Assembly (NCBI GenBank): GCA_012270885.1
Contig: JAAXHN010000034.1
Location: 2,032-34,588, forward strand
Reading direction: 5' to 3'
Origin: Acidimicrobiia bacterium
GTDB lineage: Bacteria; Actinomycetota; Acidimicrobiia; Spongiisociales; ZC4RG35
Length of the DNA: 32,557 nt
Shown: positions 4,113-18,993 of the stretch, one piece after another
How the letters are laid out: each line of letters begins with the position of its first letter
Position numbering within the stretch: the stretch's first letter is position 1
Translations under genes and position numbers: made by a program
Notes under the pieces: model-generated
Seen by the model: only the letters and a program-made list of their open reading frames with translations
Databases searched by the model: none
What the model was told of the DNA's origin: nothing

Positions 4113-4958
4113 TTATACGGCCGCCACCTCTTCGTAGACCTCGGGCCGGCGGTCGCGGTAGAAGGCCCAGTAGCGGCGCACCTCTTCCACCATCCCCAGA
4201 TCCAGTTGGCGCACCAGCACCTCGTCCTCGGTGTCCGAGGCGGTCTCGCCCACGATCTCCCCGCGGGGATCCGCGAAGTAGGAGGAGCCGTAGTAGTCGG
4301 TGCCCTCGAGGTCTTCGGCGCCCACCCGGTTGATGGCGCCCACGAAGTACTCGTTGGCGACCGCTGCGGCGGGCTGTTCCAGCTGCCAAAGGTGTTTGGA
4401 GTGGCCCCGGGTGGTGGCGGATGGGTTGAACACGATCCGGGCGCCTTTCAGGCCCAGCACTCTCCACCCCTCGGGAAAGTGGCGGTCATAGCAGATATAC
4501 ACCCCGATTCTTCCCACCGCGGTGTCGAAGATCGGGTATCCCAGATTGCCCGGCCGGAAATAGAACTTCTCCCAGAATCCCTGCACTTGGGGAATGTGGG
4601 TCTTCCGGTACTTGCCCAGATAGGTCCCGTCGGCGTCGATCACCGCCGCGGCGTTGAAGAAGGTGCCCTCGTCCACCACCTCGTATATGGGGACCACCAG
4701 CACCATCCCGGTCTCTTTGGCCACGGCGATCATGCGCTGGATGGTCGGTCCGTCGGGGATCGGTTCTGCCCAGGAGTAGTTGTCGCTGTCCTGAACGGTG
4801 CAGAAATAGGGGCTGTTGAATATCTCCTGGAAACAGAGCACCTGGGCACCCTGTTCGGCGGCCTCCCGGGCATAGGAGATGTTTTTCTCCACCATGGACT
4901 CCTGGTCGCCTGTCCACTCCGACTGGACCAGTGCGGCCTTTACCACTTGGTTGGACAT
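4113..4958 (-). CDS. Beta-ureidopropionase-like nitrilase-superfamily amidohydrolase
   Basis: This 281-residue enzyme has the nitrilase triad Glu45 (FQEIF), Lys119 (KYRKTHIP) and Cys156 (YICYDRHFPEG). The stretch after the cysteine, with FNPSAT and AINRVG, closely follows eukaryotic beta-ureidopropionase (UPB1), and GNLG-P-FDT before it does as well. The expected reaction is hydrolysis of an N-carbamoyl-beta-amino acid to the amino acid, CO2 and NH3, the last step of reductive pyrimidine breakdown. It is also close to N-carbamoylputrescine amidases, so the exact substrate is uncertain. AAAGGAG precedes the ATG by 7-8 nt. It follows the regulator gene by 47 nt in the same direction, so the two probably form an operon. 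Confidence 0.88.
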   Translation of the reverse strand: MSNQVVKAALVQSEWTGDQESMVEKNISYAREAAEQGAQVLCFQEIFNSPYFCTVQDSDNYSWAEPIPDGPTIQRMIAVAKETGMVLVVPIYEVVDEGTFFNAAAVIDADGTYLGKYRKTHIPQVQGFWEKFYFRPGNLGYPIFDTAVGRIGVYICYDRHFPEGWRVLGLKGARIVFNPSATTRGHSKHLWQLEQPAAAVANEYFVGAINRVGAEDLEGTDYYGSSYFADPRGEIVGETASDTEDEVLVRQLDLGMVEEVRRYWAFYRDRRPEVYEEVAAV

Positions 4959-5005: not shown

Positions 5006-5638
5006 CTAATCACCGCGAATGGCGTTCAGATAGTTGTAAATGGTAATTCGGCTGACTCCCATCGCCTCGGCCACGGTCTCCACCGACTTTCGGATCAGGA
5101 ATACGCCTTGCTCATCGAGGATGCGCACCGCCGCCTGCTTCTTCTCCCTTGGCAGATCGCCCAGCTTGCCACCCATCCGGCTCTCCACGACCGCCACGAT
5201 CCGCTCGACCGCTCCGTGGATGTCTTCGGGACGGGCCAATCCGATCATGGCCTGGTTCCAGACCGCCGGTTCATCGGAAGCCGTAACGCCGCCGTGGGCC
5301 GAGCTCGGGGTGTGGCCGACCACCTCGGAGACCGGGCCGATCGAGGGATCTGCGAGGCTTTTGGTCAGGGTGATGGAGATCCGGGAAGCTCCCTTTTCGA
5401 AGGCGGATCTGAGCACTGTTGGCAACACCGAAGTTAACGTCTCGTAGTCGCCATCCACAGTGTTTCCGAACGGCCCCATTGTCATCTCCAGACCATGCCG
5501 TTGCAGGATGTTCTGGGTCCCGAGTACGTGTGGTCCGGGATTCCCCTCCTCGAATGGCTCAACCAGGAACTCCAGGCGACACATTTCTTGGTGTGGGGAC
5601 TGCTCAGAGGTCATGGGGAATTGGGCACTGTAAGACAT
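5006..5638 (-). CDS. Transcriptional regulator: YkoF/MTH1187-like thiamine-binding domain fused to YheO-type HTH
   Basis: The 210-residue protein has two parts. Residues about 19-93 (motifs EFLVEPFEEGNPGPHV, GPFGNTVDGDYE and a closing beta strand) match the small thiamine/hydroxymethylpyrimidine-binding family (MTH1187/YkoF type). Residues about 164-207 match the HTH_22 DNA-binding domain of YheO-like regulators (VRILDEQGVFLIRKSVETVA, then GVSRITIYNYL as recognition helix). HTH_22 normally follows a PAS-like YheO domain, so a pyrimidine-binding sensor here is unusual. By inference it senses a pathway metabolite and controls the divergent catabolic genes. The ATG at 5638 has no ribosome site but lies 7 nt after TACAAT, consistent with a leaderless mRNA. 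Domain calls are from motif recognition only. Confidence 0.8.
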   Translation of the reverse strand: MSYSAQFPMTSEQSPHQEMCRLEFLVEPFEEGNPGPHVLGTQNILQRHGLEMTMGPFGNTVDGDYETLTSVLPTVLRSAFEKGASRISITLTKSLADPSIGPVSEVVGHTPSSAHGGVTASDEPAVWNQAMIGLARPEDIHGAVERIVAVVESRMGGKLGDLPREKKQAAVRILDEQGVFLIRKSVETVAEAMGVSRITIYNYLNAIRGD

Positions 5639-5676
5639 TTGACAAATTGTAAAGGCTTATGGTACAGTCAGCTGGG
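5627..5676. promoter_or_regulatory. Divergent promoter/operator between regulator and D-carbamoylase genes
   Basis: On the plus strand TTGACA (5639-5644) and TACAGT (5663-5668) are 18 nt apart and place transcription start at about 5675-5677, at the ATG of the second nitrilase. On the minus strand TACAAT (5651-5646) lies 7 nt before the regulator ATG at 5638, though its -35 is poor. An 11-bp perfect palindrome, ATTTGACAAAT (5637-5647), covers the plus -35 and the regulator start and is a natural operator candidate. Inverted ACTGTA/TACAGT hexamers lie at 5627-5632 and 5663-5668. Confidence 0.55.
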
Positions 5677-6621
5677 ATGAGCCGCAACTTGAAGTTAGGG
5701 GCCGCCCAACTCGGTCCCATCGCCCGGGAGGACACCCGCAAGGACGTCGTAGAGCGCCTTTTGAATCTGCTGGCCGAGGCCGGTGATCGAGGCGTGGAGT
5801 TGTTGGTTTATCCGGAGTTGGCTTTGACCACCTTTTTCCCGCGCTGGTATCTCGAGGATGAGGAGGAGATGCTCTCCTTTTTCGAGAAGGAGATGCCCTC
5901 CGACGACACCCAGCCCCTCTTCGATGAGGCGGCCCGCCTGGGCATCGGTTTCTGCCTAGGGTACGCAGAGTTGCACACCGATTCGGATGGCGTAACCCAC
6001 CGCTACAACACCCAGATGCTGGTGGAGCGGGATGGATCGGTAGTGGCCAAGTTTCGAAAAGTCCACATCCCCGGACATGCCGAGGTCCAGGGCTGGAGGC
6101 CCTTCCAGCACCTCGAGCGGTACTACTTCGAACCGGGACCCGACGGCTTCGGGGTGTGGCGGGCTTTCGGGGGGATAATGGGCATGGCGATCTGCAACGA
6201 CCGGCGTTGGTCGGAGACCTACCGGGTAATGGGGCTGCAGGGAGTGGAACTGATCATGATCGGCTACAACACCCCTTCCTTCTACGCTCCCGATCCCCAG
6301 CAGAATGCTCTGCAGAACTTCCACAACCATGTGGTGATGCAGGCGGGCGCCTACCAGAACGGATGCTGGGTGGTGGGAGTGGCCAAGGGAGGGATCGAGG
6401 AGGGGATAGACCACATAGCACAGAGCGTGATTATCGCTCCCTCCGGCCAGATCGTCGCCCAGACGATAACCACCGGTGACGAGCTGGTGGTGGCCAACAT
6501 CGACCTGGACTTCTGCTCCTTCTACAAGGACACCGTGTTCAAATTCGACCTGTACCGGGTGCCGGAGCACTATCGACTGATCAGCCAGACCAGAGGAGTG
6601 ATCCTCCCCCCCGAGGAGTAG
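5677..6621 (+). CDS. D-carbamoylase-like N-carbamoyl-amino-acid amidohydrolase (nitrilase superfamily)
   Basis: The product closely resembles Agrobacterium N-carbamoyl-D-amino acid amidohydrolase along its length. Shared elements are QLGPIARE-TR near the start, PELALTTFFPRW, GYAEL, the segment RPFQHLE-YFEPG, ICNDRRW-ETYRVMGL, GYNTP, and MQAG-YQNG near the C terminus. Numbered from the ATG at 5677, the triad is Glu47, Lys128 and Cys173, nearly the residue numbers of the known enzymes, which favours this start over an in-frame ATG at 5659. Such enzymes remove the carbamoyl group from N-carbamoyl amino acids produced by a hydantoinase. The gene opens the rightward operon and ends 3 nt before the molybdenum hydroxylase ATG. 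The actual stereospecificity is not readable from sequence. Confidence 0.9.
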   Translation: MSRNLKLGAAQLGPIAREDTRKDVVERLLNLLAEAGDRGVELLVYPELALTTFFPRWYLEDEEEMLSFFEKEMPSDDTQPLFDEAARLGIGFCLGYAELHTDSDGVTHRYNTQMLVERDGSVVAKFRKVHIPGHAEVQGWRPFQHLERYYFEPGPDGFGVWRAFGGIMGMAICNDRRWSETYRVMGLQGVELIMIGYNTPSFYAPDPQQNALQNFHNHVVMQAGAYQNGCWVVGVAKGGIEEGIDHIAQSVIIAPSGQIVAQTITTGDELVVANIDLDFCSFYKDTVFKFDLYRVPEHYRLISQTRGVILPPEE

Positions 6622-6624
6622 ACC

Positions 6625-9216
6625 ATGACTCTCATCGAAGCTCCTCCCACCGTCGCCTTCCGTCTCAACGGTGAGGACGTCTCGGTCCGGGGCGACCACC
6701 CTCATCTGCTGGCAGCCCTGCGCGAGGAGTTGGGGGTCACCTCGCCGAAGGACGGGTGCGCTCCTTCCGGACAATGCGGGTGCTGCACGGTGCTGGTGGC
6801 CGGGCGCGCCGTGGTGAGCTGCCAGGTTCCCCTCACCAGGGTGAGGGGCAAGGAAGTCGTAACCGTGGAGGGACTCGATCCGGTGGAGAGGGACCGCATG
6901 GCCCGCGGCTTCGCGGCCACCGGCGCCCTGCAGTGCGGGTTCTGCACCCCGGGCATCGTGATCCGGACCAAGGCTCTCATCGACCAGAAGGGGTCGGCGC
7001 TGGACCGGAGGACCATCAACGGCCGGCTGGGAGCCCATCTGTGCCGCTGCACCGGCTACACAAAGATCGTGGAGGCCATCGAGTTGTTGGCCTCCGGAGA
7101 CCCGATTCCCACCGTCGCCCGCCCCGGCGGGGTCGGGAAGGACGGCGCCAAGTACGAGGCGCTGGAGTTGACCCTGGGGGACCGTCCGTACATCGACGAT
7201 CTGATGTCTCCGATGATGCTGCATGGTGCCGTGCGTCTCACCGACCACTCCCGGGCGGACGTGTTGGCGATCGACACCTCTCCGGCCGAGGCCTATCCGG
7301 GGGTCGTGCGGGTGATTACGGCCGCCGATGTCCCCGGAGAGCTCCGGGTAGGGCTGATCCACAAGGATTGGCCGGTCTTTATCCCGGTGGGGGGCCGCAC
7401 CTCATATTCGGGAGACGTCTTGGCGATGGTGGTGGCGTCCGACGTGCAGACTGCCCGCGAAGCTGGCCGGTTGATCGAGGTCGAGTACCGCGTCCTGACC
7501 CCCATCAGCGATCCCGAGCAGGCGCTGGCGTCGGAGGACGCGGTGTGGGAGCTAGACGGGAATCTCCTGTCGCTCTCGGTCTACAAGCGGGGGGACGTGG
7601 AGGAGGCGCTTTCCCAATCGGCGCACACCATTCATGAGACTTTCAAGACCCAGCGGGTGGAGCACGCTTTCCTGGAGCCGGAGTCGACGGTGGCGGTTCC
7701 CTTTCCCAACGGCGACCTCCACGTCTATTCGGGAGGCCAGGGAGTGTGGGACGACCGCAACCAGATCGCCTCGGTGCTGGGGATGGATCCCTCCCGGATC
7801 ACAGTGGAACTGGTCTCCAACGGAGGCGCCTTCGGGGGGAAAGAAGACATGGCCAACCAGGCCCAGACCGCTCTTGCCGCTCACCTCTTGGGCAGGTCGG
7901 TGAAGTGCACCCTCACCCGCGAGGAGTCTCTGCACATCCACCCCAAGCGCCACCCCATCCGGATCGAGTTGTGGGCGGGCTGCGACGCTCAAGGGAGGCT
8001 CACCGCCCTCAAGACGCGAATGCTGGGTGACTCCGGACCGTACGCCTCGGTGGGGATGAAGGTGCTGGAGCGGGCCGCCGGACACGCCAGCGGCCCGTAC
8101 GTGGTGGGCGCCATAGACGTGGAGGCGGCCGCGGTGCGCACCAACAACTCGGTGTGCGGGGCGTTCCGCGGCTTCGGCGCCAACCAGGCCCAGTTCGCCA
8201 TGGAGGGAGTTATGGATCGTTTGGCGGAGAAGGTTGGGATCAGCGGCTGGGAGATGCGGGCTCGAAACGTGATCGAGCCGGGTGTGGTTTGGGGGCCGGG
8301 ACAGATCATGGATGAGGGATCGCGAGGAGCGCGGCGTTGCCTGGAGGCCGTCAAGCCTCATTACGACCGCGCGATCGAAGAAGGAAAAGCCGTTGGGGTG
8401 GGGCTCGGGTTGAAAAACTCCGGTCTCGGCAACGGCTTTCGTGAGGTATCCCGCTCCGTGGTGCGGTTCCGTCCGGACGGGACCGTGGAAGTCCGCCACT
8501 GCTGGACCGAGATGGGCCAGGGTGTGCACACCGTCGCCTTGCAGGTGGCGGTCGAGGAGTTGGGGATCGATCCCGATCGGATAGAGGTAATGGTCGACAC
8601 TTCCCGGGAACTGGGCGCCGGACAGACCACCGGTTCCCGGGGGACCCTTATGGTGGCTGGCTCGGTGGCGGACGCCTGTCGGAAGGCGTTGGAGGGAGGG
8701 TGTGAGCCGGGAGTGGACTATTACGGTGTCTGGGTGGTCGACTGGACGAACAGTCTCAAGGAGAAGGTTGAGAACCCGGTTATCCATTCAGCTTTCGGCT
8801 ACGCCAGCCAGTTGGTGATCGCCGATCCGGAGACCGGGAAGGTCGAGAAGGTGGTGGCCGCCCATGATGTCGGGAAGGCGGTTAACCCGGCTCTGTGCGA
8901 AGGCCAGATCGAGGGCTCTATCCACATGGGCCTGGGATACGCCCTTTCAGAAGACTATCCCTGCGACTCCGAGAGCCGACCCACCAACATGACCCTGCGC
9001 AGTCTGGGGATCATCCGCGCCAAGGACATGCCGGAGGTGGAGGTGATCCTGGTGGAGGAGCCCCAGCCGAACTCTCCTTACGGTATCAAGGGGGTGGGAG
9101 AGATCGGTTTGGTGCCGACCGCCGGCGCAGTGGCCGCGGCCCTGCACCAGGTGGATGGGGTTTGGCGTACTCAGTTGCCGTTCAACAAACACCACCCCCT
9201 CGGACGAAGGCGCTGA
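6625..9216 (+). CDS. Molybdenum hydroxylase, selenium-dependent xanthine dehydrogenase family (fused [2Fe-2S] and Mo domains)
   Basis: This 863-residue protein begins with two [2Fe-2S] sites. The first uses C45, C51/C53/C54 and C66, with the family spacing GCAPSGQCGCCT. The second uses C104-x2-C107 and C140-x-C142. A xanthine-oxidase-type molybdopterin domain follows, with GGAFGGKED, GAFRGFGANQAQF, GQTTGSRGT and the catalytic Glu826 in GVGEIG. The compact stretch around VDWTNSL and the fusion of both parts fit the selenium-dependent XDH family (TIGR03311 type) found beside ssnA and ygfK. It would hydroxylate a purine or similar N-heterocycle. No FAD subunit or cofactor-maturation gene (yqeB, selD) is in the window, so selenium use is only a family expectation. 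The downstream ssnA-like ATG starts 2 nt after its stop codon begins to close, which suggests translational coupling. Confidence 0.9.
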   Translation: MTLIEAPPTVAFRLNGEDVSVRGDHPHLLAALREELGVTSPKDGCAPSGQCGCCTVLVAGRAVVSCQVPLTRVRGKEVVTVEGLDPVERDRMARGFAATGALQCGFCTPGIVIRTKALIDQKGSALDRRTINGRLGAHLCRCTGYTKIVEAIELLASGDPIPTVARPGGVGKDGAKYEALELTLGDRPYIDDLMSPMMLHGAVRLTDHSRADVLAIDTSPAEAYPGVVRVITAADVPGELRVGLIHKDWPVFIPVGGRTSYSGDVLAMVVASDVQTAREAGRLIEVEYRVLTPISDPEQALASEDAVWELDGNLLSLSVYKRGDVEEALSQSAHTIHETFKTQRVEHAFLEPESTVAVPFPNGDLHVYSGGQGVWDDRNQIASVLGMDPSRITVELVSNGGAFGGKEDMANQAQTALAAHLLGRSVKCTLTREESLHIHPKRHPIRIELWAGCDAQGRLTALKTRMLGDSGPYASVGMKVLERAAGHASGPYVVGAIDVEAAAVRTNNSVCGAFRGFGANQAQFAMEGVMDRLAEKVGISGWEMRARNVIEPGVVWGPGQIMDEGSRGARRCLEAVKPHYDRAIEEGKAVGVGLGLKNSGLGNGFREVSRSVVRFRPDGTVEVRHCWTEMGQGVHTVALQVAVEELGIDPDRIEVMVDTSRELGAGQTTGSRGTLMVAGSVADACRKALEGGCEPGVDYYGVWVVDWTNSLKEKVENPVIHSAFGYASQLVIADPETGKVEKVVAAHDVGKAVNPALCEGQIEGSIHMGLGYALSEDYPCDSESRPTNMTLRSLGIIRAKDMPEVEVILVEEPQPNSPYGIKGVGEIGLVPTAGAVAAALHQVDGVWRTQLPFNKHHPLGRRR

Positions 9217-9217
9217 C

Positions 9218-10234
9218 ATGAACCGGGAAACCCCCGGGCTGGTCTGCGCTCATCATCATCTCTACTCGGCCCTGGCCAGGGGTATGCCCGCCCCTCCCTG
9301 CCTTCCCACGAGCTTCGGTGAGATCCTGGAGCAGATCTGGTGGCGGTTGGATGTCGCCCTGGATGAGGAGATGATTTACTGGTCGGCCAAACTGGGCGCC
9401 CTGGAGGCCTTGGAGCGGGGCACGACCGCCATCGTGGACCATCACGCCTCCCCTTCTGCGATCGAGGGCTCCCTGTCATTGATCGCCGATGCGTGCGCGG
9501 CCGTGGGGGTGAGGGTGGCGTGCGCCTACGAGGTGACCGACCGGCACGGGCGTGACGGCGCCCGCCGGGGTCTTGAGGAGAACCGGCGATTTCTCTCGGA
9601 GGGCGGGAAGGGTTGGGTGGGCGCCCACGCCTGCTTCACCCTTTCGGATCAGACCCTGGATGAGGTATGCGGGCTGGCAGACGACCTGGGGGTCGGGGTG
9701 CACATCCACGTGGCGGAGGGGATCGAGGATCCCGACGCCGGACGGCGCCTCGAATCCAGGTCCCGGGAGAACTGGCTCCTGGGGCATTGTGTTCACCTCG
9801 ACAGGGACTTGAAGGGAGTGATACTGCACAATCCCGAATCCAATCTGAACAACGGGGTGGGTTATGCCCGGCCCACCAGGTTTCCCAACCGCGTGGCCCT
9901 GGGGACCGACGGGATCGGGGGTGACATGCTGGGAGCCTTCCGGGCCGCGTACCTCCGGATGCGGGAAGAGGATGTCACATCGTCTCCGGAGATTGCCTGG
10001 TCGTGGTTGGAGACCGGCTGGGAGCTCTTCCCCGAGGCTCGGGGAGACCGGGTGGTCTGGTCGCATGATCCCATGGATCCCTGGCACCTGGCTTTCACCC
10101 CTGGTGTGCGGCCTCTCCGGGTGGAGGTGGGAGGCGAGGTCGTTCTTTCCGAGGGTCGGTCCACCCGGGTCGACCCCGACGAAGTGCGGGCCAAGGCCGC
10201 CGAGCATGCGGCCCGTCTCCATGCCCGCCTGTAG
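9218..10234 (+). CDS. ssnA: SsnA-like amidohydrolase/aminohydrolase, short N terminus
   Basis: The 338-residue product aligns by eye with E. coli SsnA from its metal-binding HxH (H12, H14 in VCAHHHLYSALARG) onward. Other matches are WWRLD-ALDEE, VDHHASP, H164 (HIHVAEG), H190 (LGHCVHL), N-NNGVGY and D231 in LGTDGIGGDM. These supply the expected mononuclear or binuclear metal site of amidohydrolases. SsnA-type proteins are thought to deaminate or hydrolyse purine-like rings. Usual length is about 440, and the roughly 55-60 residues before HxH, part of the small beta-sandwich domain, are missing. Reading upstream in frame only enters the hydroxylase gene and gives no such domain. It sits between the hydroxylase and the ygfK-like gene, the E. 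coli association. Confidence 0.88.
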   Translation: MNRETPGLVCAHHHLYSALARGMPAPPCLPTSFGEILEQIWWRLDVALDEEMIYWSAKLGALEALERGTTAIVDHHASPSAIEGSLSLIADACAAVGVRVACAYEVTDRHGRDGARRGLEENRRFLSEGGKGWVGAHACFTLSDQTLDEVCGLADDLGVGVHIHVAEGIEDPDAGRRLESRSRENWLLGHCVHLDRDLKGVILHNPESNLNNGVGYARPTRFPNRVALGTDGIGGDMLGAFRAAYLRMREEDVTSSPEIAWSWLETGWELFPEARGDRVVWSHDPMDPWHLAFTPGVRPLRVEVGGEVVLSEGRSTRVDPDEVRAKAAEHAARLHARL

Positions 10235-10254: not shown

Positions 10255-12045
10255 ATGTCCTCCGGCGCCGATCCCCTAACTCCCTATCCGCTGGACATGC
10301 TGTTGGGGAGGGTGGCCGCCGAATGGGAGTCCCGGCAGCGGATTTTCGATCTGCCCTTTGCCAGGGTATGGAAGCGGCCGCCCGATCTCGACCTGGGATT
10401 CTCCTTCCTGGGCCGTCCCTGCGCCTCCCCGGTGGGTCCGGCCGCCGGGCCCCACAGCCAGATGACCCAGAACATCGTGCTGTCCTGGCTGGGCGGGTCC
10501 CGGCTCTTTGAGCTGAAGACCGTTCAGGTTCTCGACCGCCTGGAGATAGCTCGTCCCTGCATCGACATGCAGACCATCGGCTACAACATCGAGTGGAGCC
10601 AGGAACTGCGGGTGGAGGAGTCTCTGATCGAGTACGTGAAAGCATGGATGATGATCAGGATTCTCAACAACTGGGAGCCGGTGTCCGAGTTGGTGGGCCC
10701 CGATCCGGGCCCCTTTGTCTTCGACATGTCGGTTGGCTATGACCTGGAGGGGATCTCCACGGAGAAGGTCTCCGACTTCATAGTGGAGATGAAGAACGCC
10801 AAGAACCGGATCGACTCCTTCCGGCCTCAGATACCCGAGCCGTTCGCCCATCTTCGGGACCTCGACTTCCCGTCCCGGATCGCCGACACGGTGACGCTTT
10901 CCACTTTCCACGGTTGCCCGCCGCACGAGATCGATGCGATAACCAAGCATCTGATGACCCGTCATGAGTGCGATGTGATCGTCAAGCTCAATCCCACCCT
11001 GCTGGGAATCGGAAGGGTGCAGGAGATCCTCCACGAGACCCTCGGTTACGAACACATCCCGCTTCTGCCCCAGGCCTTCGTGGACGACCTGCAGTTCGAC
11101 CAGGGGATAGAGCTGATAGAGGGATTGCGGGAGTTTGCCCGCCGTCACGGCCGGCGGTTCGGGATCAAGCTCAGCAACACCCTGGTGGTGGGCAACGACA
11201 AGGGGTGGATGCCCGACGATCCCATGTACCTCTCCGGGCCTCCCCTCCATGTCATCACCTCGACGCTCCTGGACGAGTTGATCTGCGCTCTGCCCGGTGT
11301 CTTCAACCTGGCGGGGCACGGAGGCGACGTACAGGTGAGCTTCTCGGCAGGGGTAAGCAAGGAGAACCTCTCCGACACCCTGGGGATGGGAGTGGCGCCG
11401 GTCACGGTCTGCTCGGATCTGCTCAAGCCCGGCGGCTATGGCCGCCTTGCGCCCATGCTCAACCGCCTGGCCTTGGAGATGCGCCGGGTGGGAGCCGAAG
11501 ATCTGGCTTCCTGGCATCATCACAAGTGGGAGTTGGCGCGCGCCAGGGGATACCGGGGGCCGGTGGAGGCCCATGTGATGGCCATGAGCGGCGGCAAGGA
11601 GACCGGCTTCTACCATCTCTCGGGGAACGAAAAGTTGCCGCGAGCGGTGGACAAGGTCCTCCAGATGTGGGGATGCGTTGCCTGCAACTTCTGCGTTACG
11701 GTGTGTCCCAACGACGCGGTGATCCGCCTGGCCACCGTGCCCGAGCTTCAGGATGAGCTGACCGACCGGTGGCAGTACTTCATCCTGGCCGAGTTGTGCA
11801 ACGAGTGCGGCAACTGTTTGACCTTCTGTCCCGAGGAGGGCGATCCGGCGGTGCTCAAGCCCCGGCTGTTCGTGGACCGCGACCGGTTCGAGGCCGACCA
11901 GGACCAGGGATTCTTCGTAACACCCACCGCCGACCGGCTGGGGGTGCTGGCCAGCCCCGGCTATGAGAAGGAAGTGGCGCCTCTCACTGCCATGCTCAAC
12001 GGCGCCCAGGGTCTGCCGCTCCGGACCGCCGAGTTGCCGACCTAG
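10255..12045 (+). CDS. ygfK: YgfK-like FMN/Fe-S reductase lacking the central GltD-like domain
   Basis: The first about 420 residues follow E. coli YgfK closely: PVGPAAGPHSQMTQNIV, FELKTVQVLDRLEI-PCID, MSVGYDLEGI, TLSTFHGCPPHEIDAI, KLNPTLLG and DLLKPGGYGRL. This is the dihydroorotate-dehydrogenase-like barrel. Two ferredoxin-type clusters follow: C474, C477, C480, C484 and C515, C518, C521, C525. E. coli YgfK is about 1030 residues with an FAD/NAD(P) GltD-like domain between these parts. Here that domain is absent (596 residues in all), giving an architecture like the PreA subunit of dihydropyrimidine dehydrogenase. By inference it reduces a ring double bond with electrons from a separate donor. 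GGGAG lies about 10 nt before the ATG. The historical name selenate reductase is not supported by anything here. Confidence 0.88.
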   Translation: MSSGADPLTPYPLDMLLGRVAAEWESRQRIFDLPFARVWKRPPDLDLGFSFLGRPCASPVGPAAGPHSQMTQNIVLSWLGGSRLFELKTVQVLDRLEIARPCIDMQTIGYNIEWSQELRVEESLIEYVKAWMMIRILNNWEPVSELVGPDPGPFVFDMSVGYDLEGISTEKVSDFIVEMKNAKNRIDSFRPQIPEPFAHLRDLDFPSRIADTVTLSTFHGCPPHEIDAITKHLMTRHECDVIVKLNPTLLGIGRVQEILHETLGYEHIPLLPQAFVDDLQFDQGIELIEGLREFARRHGRRFGIKLSNTLVVGNDKGWMPDDPMYLSGPPLHVITSTLLDELICALPGVFNLAGHGGDVQVSFSAGVSKENLSDTLGMGVAPVTVCSDLLKPGGYGRLAPMLNRLALEMRRVGAEDLASWHHHKWELARARGYRGPVEAHVMAMSGGKETGFYHLSGNEKLPRAVDKVLQMWGCVACNFCVTVCPNDAVIRLATVPELQDELTDRWQYFILAELCNECGNCLTFCPEEGDPAVLKPRLFVDRDRFEADQDQGFFVTPTADRLGVLASPGYEKEVAPLTAMLNGAQGLPLRTAELPT

Positions 12046-17442: not shown

Positions 17443-18993
17443 GTGCTGATCATCTATATGATGAATGGCATGGAGGATCGAGCGTCCCGGACCCCGCGCC
17501 GTTCCACCAGCACCTCCGTGTTCGGAGCAGGTCGACGAGAGAGTCATGACTCGTCGGCCTTTTACGCCCGTTTCAAACCACCGGTTATCGATGACGACAA
17601 TCGGGTCGGCTCCTGTCCCGACATAGACGGTCCGTTCCTGGGAGATGCCCGGTGGATGGGAGAACTTCCCGACCGGTCCGTTGCTTTGGTGGTTACGTCA
17701 CCTCCCTACTTCGTGGGGAAGGAGTACGAGGACGCGGTGCTCCAGGCTGCTCGTTCCAACTCTCTTTCGGCTGAACTTCCGGGAAACTACCGGGAGTATC
17801 TCCGGCTTCTTTACGATGTCTTCGCCGAGTGCCGCAGGGTTCTGGAGCCGGGCGGGCGCATGGCCGTCAACGTGGCCAATCTGGGGAGAAAGCCCTATCG
17901 TAGCCTCTCCGCCGATGTGATCGGGATCTTCGAGTCTCTCGGCTTGCTGCTCCGGGGGGAGATCATTTGGCGCAAGGCATCGGCAGCCAGTGGTTCCTGT
18001 GCCTGGGGCTCGTTTCGCAGCCCTGCCAATCCGGTGCTCAGGGACGTGACTGAGCGGGTGATCATCGCGTCCAAGGGTCGGTTTGATCGGGCTCTTACTT
18101 CTGCTCAACGACAAGCACAGGAGCTTCCCTTCCGTCCCAGCCTGGCTAACGACGAATTCGTCGAAGCGACCCTGGATGTGTGGGATATTCCCGCTGAGAG
18201 CGCCCGTCGGGTGGGTCACCCGGCGCCTTTTCCGGTGGAGCTTCCCTTGAGGCTTATTGATCTCTATACATACCGAGACGACCTGGTGCTCGACCCCTTC
18301 ATGGGGTCGGGAACTACTTTGGTGGCTGCTCGCCGAGCAGGGAGGAGAGGGGTCGGATACGACATAAACCCCGAATACGTGGACATGGCTCGGCAGAGGT
18401 TGGAGGTTGCTCACCGCCGACCCTTCCCGGAGGAGGAGATGGAGATTGCTTCGTCTCCCAACGGTGTCGCCGATGGAGGGGCCATCGCCGGTGAAACCAC
18501 AGAGCACTTCCAAGCGCGGGCGTTGCGGGAAGGGAAGAAAGCCCAGGACTTGGCGAGGGACGCGTTGAGTCATGCGGAGTTTGAGATTCTCAGGACCAAT
18601 CCCCGGATCGCCAGGTTGGGCATCCAGTTCAACTTCCTGGTCGAGAACCGGCATGGCCGGAGGTGGTACGTGGACGTCTCGGGGGCTTTCACCACCGTCC
18701 GTCCGGGACTCATGCGAACCGACACCCTGTGGAAGACGCTGGGCCGCGCCCACGTCCATCACATGGCGGGGGACGGGACTCCGCTCCTGATACTGACCTC
18801 GAACCTGCCCAAGCCTGGAGCCGAAGGATGGAAGGCTCTGAAGTCGGTGGGACCCCGAAGCGTGTTCGACGCCATCGAGATCTTCGACCCGGAGGGGGCC
18901 GACCGCCTCGGGTCCTACGGAAGGGAGGACATAAGCCGCCCCACAAAGGGGTTCTGGACTCCCGAGCAGATCGAACAGGCCTTCGGGAGATAG
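17443..18993 (+). CDS. TSPPY-type DNA methyltransferase with an extra C-terminal domain
   Basis: Motif IV is TSPPY (residues 85-89) and motif I is LVLDPFMGSGTTLVA, about 195 residues later. Motif IV before motif I is the beta-class order. TSPPY is commonest in N4-cytosine methylases, though N6-adenine cannot be excluded. Motif X follows (GVGYDINPEYVDMARQRLE). The catalytic module ends near residue 325. Residues about 345-516 form a separate domain with GIQFNFLVENRHGRRWYVDV and TDTLWKTLGRAHV, seen as a tail in other actinobacterial methylases. It might be a target-recognition or degenerate nuclease domain; I cannot assign it. Several starts are possible (GTG 17443, ATG 17458, 17461, 17470). 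It is probably the modification half of a restriction-modification or other defence set. Confidence 0.85.
   Translation: MLIIYMMNGMEDRASRTPRRSTSTSVFGAGRRESHDSSAFYARFKPPVIDDDNRVGSCPDIDGPFLGDARWMGELPDRSVALVVTSPPYFVGKEYEDAVLQAARSNSLSAELPGNYREYLRLLYDVFAECRRVLEPGGRMAVNVANLGRKPYRSLSADVIGIFESLGLLLRGEIIWRKASAASGSCAWGSFRSPANPVLRDVTERVIIASKGRFDRALTSAQRQAQELPFRPSLANDEFVEATLDVWDIPAESARRVGHPAPFPVELPLRLIDLYTYRDDLVLDPFMGSGTTLVAARRAGRRGVGYDINPEYVDMARQRLEVAHRRPFPEEEMEIASSPNGVADGGAIAGETTEHFQARALREGKKAQDLARDALSHAEFEILRTNPRIARLGIQFNFLVENRHGRRWYVDVSGAFTTVRPGLMRTDTLWKTLGRAHVHHMAGDGTPLLILTSNLPKPGAEGWKALKSVGPRSVFDAIEIFDPEGADRLGSYGREDISRPTKGFWTPEQIEQAFGR

Follow-up and report, generated by a model that had tools for sequence, protein, structure and literature searches.

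The window, that is, the whole 32,557-nucleotide stretch of DNA that was analysed, carries on its minus strand an ORF coding for a 210-aa protein in which a thiamine-binding-type domain precedes a C-terminal HTH_22 domain. A row of catabolic genes diverges from it, and the short space between the two transcription directions holds a palindrome. The features discussed below are:

5006..5638, minus strand: ORF of the fused regulator, listed with 210 aa (probably starting at ATG 5614, 202 aa, by comparison)
5366..5563, minus strand: Thiamine_BP-type (MTH1187 fold) domain, residues 26-91, by Pfam match, motif, model and Foldseek
5210..5365, minus strand: linker, about 48 aa between the domain matches, of low confidence in the model
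5024..5209, minus strand: HTH_22 DNA-binding domain, residues 144-205, by Pfam match and model
5639..5653, no strand: palindrome TTGACAAATTGTAAA (TTNACANNNTGTNAA), a candidate operator between the divergent genes, from the upstream-region pattern
5639..5668, plus strand: promoter-like pair of the divergent gene, TTGACA (5639-5644), 18 bp, TACAGT (5663-5668), found by eye
5659..6621, plus strand: CN_hydrolase CNH1 (nitrilase-superfamily amidase), divergent, by Pfam; start 5659 as listed or ATG 5677
4113..4958, minus strand: CN_hydrolase CNH2, N-carbamoylputrescine-amidase-like (TIGR03381, 264.7 bits, below the cutoff of 410)
6625..9216, plus strand: molybdenum hydroxylase, Se-dependent-XDH-like (TIGR03311, 821.6 bits, cutoff 830.5)
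9155..10234, plus strand: SsnA-like amidohydrolase (NF005540, 253.5 bits, below the cutoff of 444)
10255..12045, plus strand: YgfK-like Fe-S protein (TIGR03315, 429 bits, below the cutoff of 835, N-terminal part of the model)

The sequence-only reading had proposed a fusion of the thiamine-binding family with HTH_22, and HMM searches bear this out. In the Pfam scan residues 26-91 matched PF01910 (Thiamine_BP; 30.1 bits against a gathering score of 24.9, E = 4.8e-07) and residues 144-205 matched PF13309 (HTH_22; 69.5 bits against 29.6, E = 2.4e-19). That a small-fold domain occupies the sensor place of a YheO-type regulator also held: neither PAS_6 nor any other PAS family appeared among the 13 families listed for the window protein at E ≤ 10, and the scan gave no match to a MarR winged-helix domain. 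The MTH1187 equivalog model TIGR00106 scored the window protein at 20.4 bits, below its cutoff of 54.7. Scanned singly, all 45 fused proteins of the alignment matched both families at E ≤ 0.1, which speaks against a chance or artefactual pairing. The genome of the regulator has one PF01910 match and one HTH_22 match over the cutoff.

As the first eight residues lie outside the frame conservation seen in relatives, the start conserved across the genus probably corresponds to ATG 5614 (residue 9, MTSEQ...) rather than 5638; therefore, the protein would be 202 aa long.

In the AlphaFold model, for which 45 fused relatives were used, residues 19-93 form a confidently predicted beta-alpha-beta-beta-alpha-beta domain (pLDDT about 84-95 for the N-terminal domain); residues 96-137 are modelled with low confidence, and the C-terminal part is a confident group of four helices. 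All 13 Foldseek matches at E ≤ 0.001 were DUF77/MTH1187/MJ1052/YBL001c/SP2199/TM0486 chains, with YkoF next in the list (E 0.005-0.03); a profile search against PDB sequences gave 1yqh (E = 9.6e-08), TM0486 (8.7e-06) and MTH1187 (9e-05). The predicted N-terminal fold is thus that of the MTH1187/DUF77 family, a ferredoxin-like fold. The VIA-align list was uninformative on function; common ferredoxin-like folds (de novo designs, PII proteins) stood at its top, tied at Z 8-9.

The regulator group has a conserved motif of its own, E23, E27-P28-F29, H37 and G55-P56-F57, which is largely missing from the stand-alone domains examined; E23 sits just ahead of the PF01910 match. Fused and split forms alike keep E23, E27, P28, F29, H37 and G55 nearly unchanged; these are candidate pocket residues.

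Ring-degrading genes had been anticipated beside the regulator, and we saw an XDH-like, an SsnA-like and a YgfK-like gene together with two amidases, one of which, CNH2, is encoded downstream of the regulator, also on the minus strand. XdhD, YgfK and SsnA act in reductive urate degradation in E. coli, with two ureido groups removed later (PMC12507026). The window holds homologues of all three; however, they score below the NCBIfam equivalog cutoffs, so the exact pathway is not proven, and two nitrilase-type amidases adjoin them. The product of 6625..9216 is a candidate XdhD-type urate/xanthine enzyme. CNH1 is a candidate ureido-group amidase, and CNH1 and CNH2 together could remove the two ureido groups. 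Elsewhere in the window, positions 17443-18990 hold a gene for an N6_N4_Mtase DNA methylase (PF01555, 139.9 bits).

Fused and split forms of the regulator

In Acidimicrobiia the thiamine-BP-type and HTH_22 domains are either fused or encoded by two adjacent genes, usually overlapping by RTGA. A match was found in 19 of the 60 relatives examined. The fused protein occurs in the five other members of the genus and in genome G028; 11 genomes have two separate ORFs, with the RTGA overlap of HTH start and thiamine-BP-like stop in every one of them (11/11); in G015 there is just a fragment of the HTH. Scanning species genomes yielded 224 confirmed relatives; the best 80 were retained, so that the counts describe the closest relatives: 47 fused, 30 split and three HTH-only, nearly all titled as Acidimicrobiia or Actinomycetota MAGs. 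The fusion, for which a database survey had been proposed, is therefore not unique to the window. Three loci (L038, L093, L086) come from records titled Bifidobacterium breve or Acidobacteria, yet fall among the Acidimicrobiia sequences; these records are probably mistitled.

Over all loci collected, 50 of 65 split pairs (two loci being duplicates) have the exact RTGA overlap, a recurrence that rules out a frameshift artefact in the split relatives. The duplicates, L128 (same as L067) and L131 (same as L089), are absent from the operator count given below and kept in the tree and in the split and context counts. Linker length ranges from 11 to 61 residues across 49 fused loci; the linker of the fused protein takes the position that, in split relatives, belongs to the N-terminal region of the HTH gene.

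A tree of 114 of the 135 loci (111 distinct; loci lacking one of the two domains, HTH-only or TBP-only, and short fragments were left out) rests on few columns and has many open forks; fused and split forms require six changes on it, and branches with good support force at least two of them. The idea of one fusion event, confined to the window, is thereby rejected. That coupled genes became fused repeatedly is an argument for the two parts acting together.

Other arrangements were seen as well. At L116, within a uricase/XDH cluster, the HTH gene precedes the overlapping thiamine-BP gene, the reverse of the usual order; at L115 the HTH and TBP genes lie apart; at L118 a thiamine-BP gene of the subfamily lies in an XDH/SsnA/YgfK cluster, with a one-mismatch palindrome upstream and no HTH gene behind it.

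Purine genes and a candidate operator

Purine markers, drawn from the window and from annotated records, were counted within 9.5 kb of each locus. Among the best 80 of the 224 relatives, at least one marker was present at 44 of 47 fused loci and at least two at 40 of 47; the control, 20 random 19-kb regions from eleven surveyed genomes, had none (0/20). The 30 split loci of the same set were divided into three groups: (i) purine-linked (4); (ii) linked to an M20 amidohydrolase (20); (iii) neither (6). The context label, purine or M20, changes once on the tree. One clade of split pairs (L037, L038, L067, L076-L078, L114, L117 and others) is M20 amidohydrolase-linked and has neither purine markers nor the palindrome.

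The purine/urate neighbours include XDH/XdhD-like, YgfK-like and SsnA-like genes, 8-oxoguanine deaminase and ureido-type amidases. Recurrent neighbours that scored over their cutoffs include 8-oxoguanine deaminase (577.5 versus 532) and a hydantoinase/carbamoylase-family amidase. No thiamine gene was found among the recurrent neighbours annotated.

Searching up to 260 bp upstream (stretches shorter than 150 bases left out) and allowing one mismatch at most, we found TTNACANNNTGTNAA at 43 of 46 fused purine-linked loci, compared with about 0.3% of Markov shuffles. Among split loci, it preceded 9 of the 24 that are purine-linked, 1 of the 25 that are M20-linked and none of the 12 others; it was also seen at 0 of 3 other fused loci and 1 of 15 TBP-only loci. 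The fused purine-linked loci, 765 kb in all, contained 37 exact copies and the split purine-linked loci (441 kb) 9; 429 kb of split M20-linked loci and 380 kb of random regions contained none. A first version of the consensus with a 4-base spacer fitted poorly and was replaced by the 3-base spacer.

The upstream regions that gave the pattern also served for counting it, and the loci are related; for these reasons a genome-wide test was run. There were 39 exact sites in 15 genomes of the class that bear the regulator (G170 has just the TBP gene), with two genomes having none; in 15 genomes of the compact fused clade there were 27, with three having none; 15 regulator-free relatives had four in total. 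Sites at the regulator or at a purine marker made up 17 of 27 in the compact fused clade and 15-16 of 39 in the regulator-bearing genomes of the class; the others (10 of 27 and 23-24 of 39, respectively) lay off purine markers. Some copies away from the regulator stand at pathway genes: in four of four genomes of one genus (G038, G045, G051, G058) the one further site separates divergent CNH1 and CNH2 genes, and in G450, G451, G454 and G457 non-regulator sites, in part on other contigs, immediately precede YgfK-like, XDH-small-subunit or XDH-like genes.

The window's own genome has four exact sites, one at the regulator and the other three by glycine-betaine, corrinoid or nuo genes. The three (L186, L187 and L189, on contigs C102, C130 and C201) lie near nuoH, a gene for a corrinoid (B12-binding) protein and one for a glycine-betaine-binding protein. 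Sites at corrinoid, glycine-betaine transporter and nuo genes of the window genus have different spacers, several being conserved between species; they may be owned by another regulator.

Related pairs and stand-alone domains in other Actinomycetota

Outside the class, uricase, HIUase and OHCU decarboxylase are the neighbours in other actinobacteria. By tblastn against plasmids we found a split pair in a uricase cluster (uricase, HIUase, OHCU decarboxylase, symporter, Gcl) of Tsukamurella tyrosinosolvens, and another in a uricase cluster of Streptomyces angustmyceticus, the latter also with 8-oxoguanine deaminase. These pairs are annotated as 'thiamine-binding protein' (or hypothetical) and 'helix-turn-helix'.

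A thiamine-BP-like match was present in 83 of 396 Actinomycetota genomes, and the regions around 40 matches were fetched. The 30 strongest comprised 16 with at least one purine marker, six with M20 and eight with neither; uricase clusters stand at most pairs of a Streptomyces-like genus (g78) and at the fused locus of G142. Seven of the 10 weaker matches had a purine marker and no HTH match; thus the domain accompanies urate genes even without an HTH partner. At seven loci (L145, L146, L149-L153) a divergent stand-alone thiamine-BP-like gene of about 95 aa adjoins or overlaps the XDH large-subunit gene, several of them near uricase; its product is perhaps a urate-pathway sensor or accessory protein.

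Streptomyces pairs that lie in uricase clusters have no full palindrome upstream; support for the operator is therefore limited to Acidimicrobiia. Six Streptomyces-like loci (L103, L124, L127, L130, L133, L136) share, by eye, an upstream TGTCAAG half-site rather than the full palindrome.

Proposed mechanism, ligand and alternatives

We propose, with a probability of about 0.7, that purine (urate) catabolism is controlled by the window protein as a one-component regulator, in which an HTH_22 dimer binds the palindrome and an MTH1187-fold domain senses an oxopurine, most likely urate; it is expected to be a repressor. The regulon, purine catabolism, is well supported; we infer binding of TTNACANNNTGTNAA by the regulator protein, dimerisation, the ligand, and repression rather than activation. 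The HTH_22 dimer would sit on TTNACANNNTGTNAA, which separates the regulator gene from the divergent catabolic operon, and would there block both divergent promoters, while the MTH1187-fold domain would control DNA binding by sensing an oxopurine of the pathway. Binding of urate to the sensor domain would then release the DNA, and derepression would follow, lifting autorepression too. Repression and autorepression are expected since promoter-like -35 elements of both strands lie within the operator. HucR and PecS, of the MarR family, bind a divergent operator and have their repression released by an oxopurine; the window regulator is proposed to work alike, but it has no MarR domain and its sensor fold is unrelated.

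Urate was chosen because it is common to the uricase and XdhD-YgfK-SsnA contexts and is the product of 8-oxoguanine deaminase. It is the compound shared by the oxidative uricase route and the reductive XdhD-YgfK-SsnA route (PMC12507026). One could argue for control of purine catabolism by a different ligand, such as xanthine, 8-oxoguanine, yanthine, a ureido intermediate or glyoxylate, since the clusters also contain 8-oxoguanine deaminase and allantoate-type amidohydrolases, and those of Streptomyces-like genomes and Tsukamurella contain Gcl. We regard this as a real, though clearly less probable, alternative: downstream intermediates differ between the oxidative and the reductive route, so a conserved ligand would more likely be urate or a compound upstream of urate.

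It is unlikely that the thiamine-BP domain serves as a scaffold or dimerisation module (or has a catalytic role) instead of sensing a ligand. Ferredoxin-like folds often assemble, and the divergent version in XDH-uricase operons stands alone with no HTH match; however, the polar residues E23, E27 and H37 are near-invariant in fused and split forms, the M20-linked clade included, which fits a binding site.

The halves of the palindrome, TTGACA and TTTACA, resemble -35 boxes, and TTGACA-18-TACAGT, just before ATG 5677, reads by eye as a promoter of the divergent gene; the palindrome might then be two back-to-back -35 boxes rather than an operator. The fixed 3-bp spacing, the rarity of exact copies in regulator-free genomes and random regions (4 in 15 genomes and 0 in 380 kb, as above) and the distant copies at urate-pathway genes make this quite improbable.

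Least probable is that the sensor binds thiamine or HMP like YkoF, with ring degradation tied to vitamin B1 status or a thiamine-derived pyrimidine being degraded: PF01910 is over its cutoff and the fold is that of MTH1187/TM0486/YkoF, but TIGR00106 falls short, the conserved motif is distinct, the annotated recurrent neighbours include no thiamine gene, and the pair is common to two different urate routes. Of the two ligands offered by the sequence-only reading, the aminopyrimidine (thiamine, HMP) is thus not supported, given the score, the motif and the neighbours, and the pathway intermediate is favoured by the purine/urate neighbourhood.

Among known systems, the proposed purine regulator shares with YheO-type (PAS_6 and HTH_22) regulators a C-terminal HTH_22 with a sensor ahead of it; in place of PAS_6 it has the MTH1187-fold domain, often encoded by a separate overlapping gene. 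With the MTH1187/UPF0045/YkoF thiamine-binding proteins (PF01910) it shares the fold and the Pfam match; it differs from them in its TIGR00106 score, its own motif, a DNA-binding partner and the purine context.

The sequence-only reading had suspected a little-described class, and in the literature searched, where subscription journals are thinly covered, we found no published description of the thiamine-BP/HTH_22 pair. In the searched text of the paper on the reductive urate pathway (PMC12507026) the word 'regulator' does not occur; passages of PMC3897704 label SCO6208 a transposase and SCO6211 a uricase, with nothing more on them, and a passage of PMC10717218 mentions a YheO-like regulator in Campylobacter, no more. 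As far as our searches go, the role of the domain pairing, the operator and the regulon are unreported.

A broader generalization, which we offer tentatively and hold at a little less than even odds, is that the 'thiamine-binding proteins' are receptors of urate (oxopurine), acting through a translationally coupled or fused HTH_22 and widespread in actinobacteria; the stand-alone versions at XDH and uricase genes would belong to the same lineage, and in Acidimicrobiia TTNACANNNTGTNAA would be the operator of a regulon that includes unlinked urate-pathway genes. The operator and the list of targets are directly testable, the split pair offers a regulator that a laboratory Streptomyces could serve to study, and the protein is a candidate for a genetically encoded urate sensor. 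If correct, the proposal would add a further sensor fold for HTH-linked purine sensing alongside the MarR-type regulators; it would also assign a function to, and correct a misleading name for, gene pairs in the urate clusters of Streptomyces, Tsukamurella and Acidimicrobiia.
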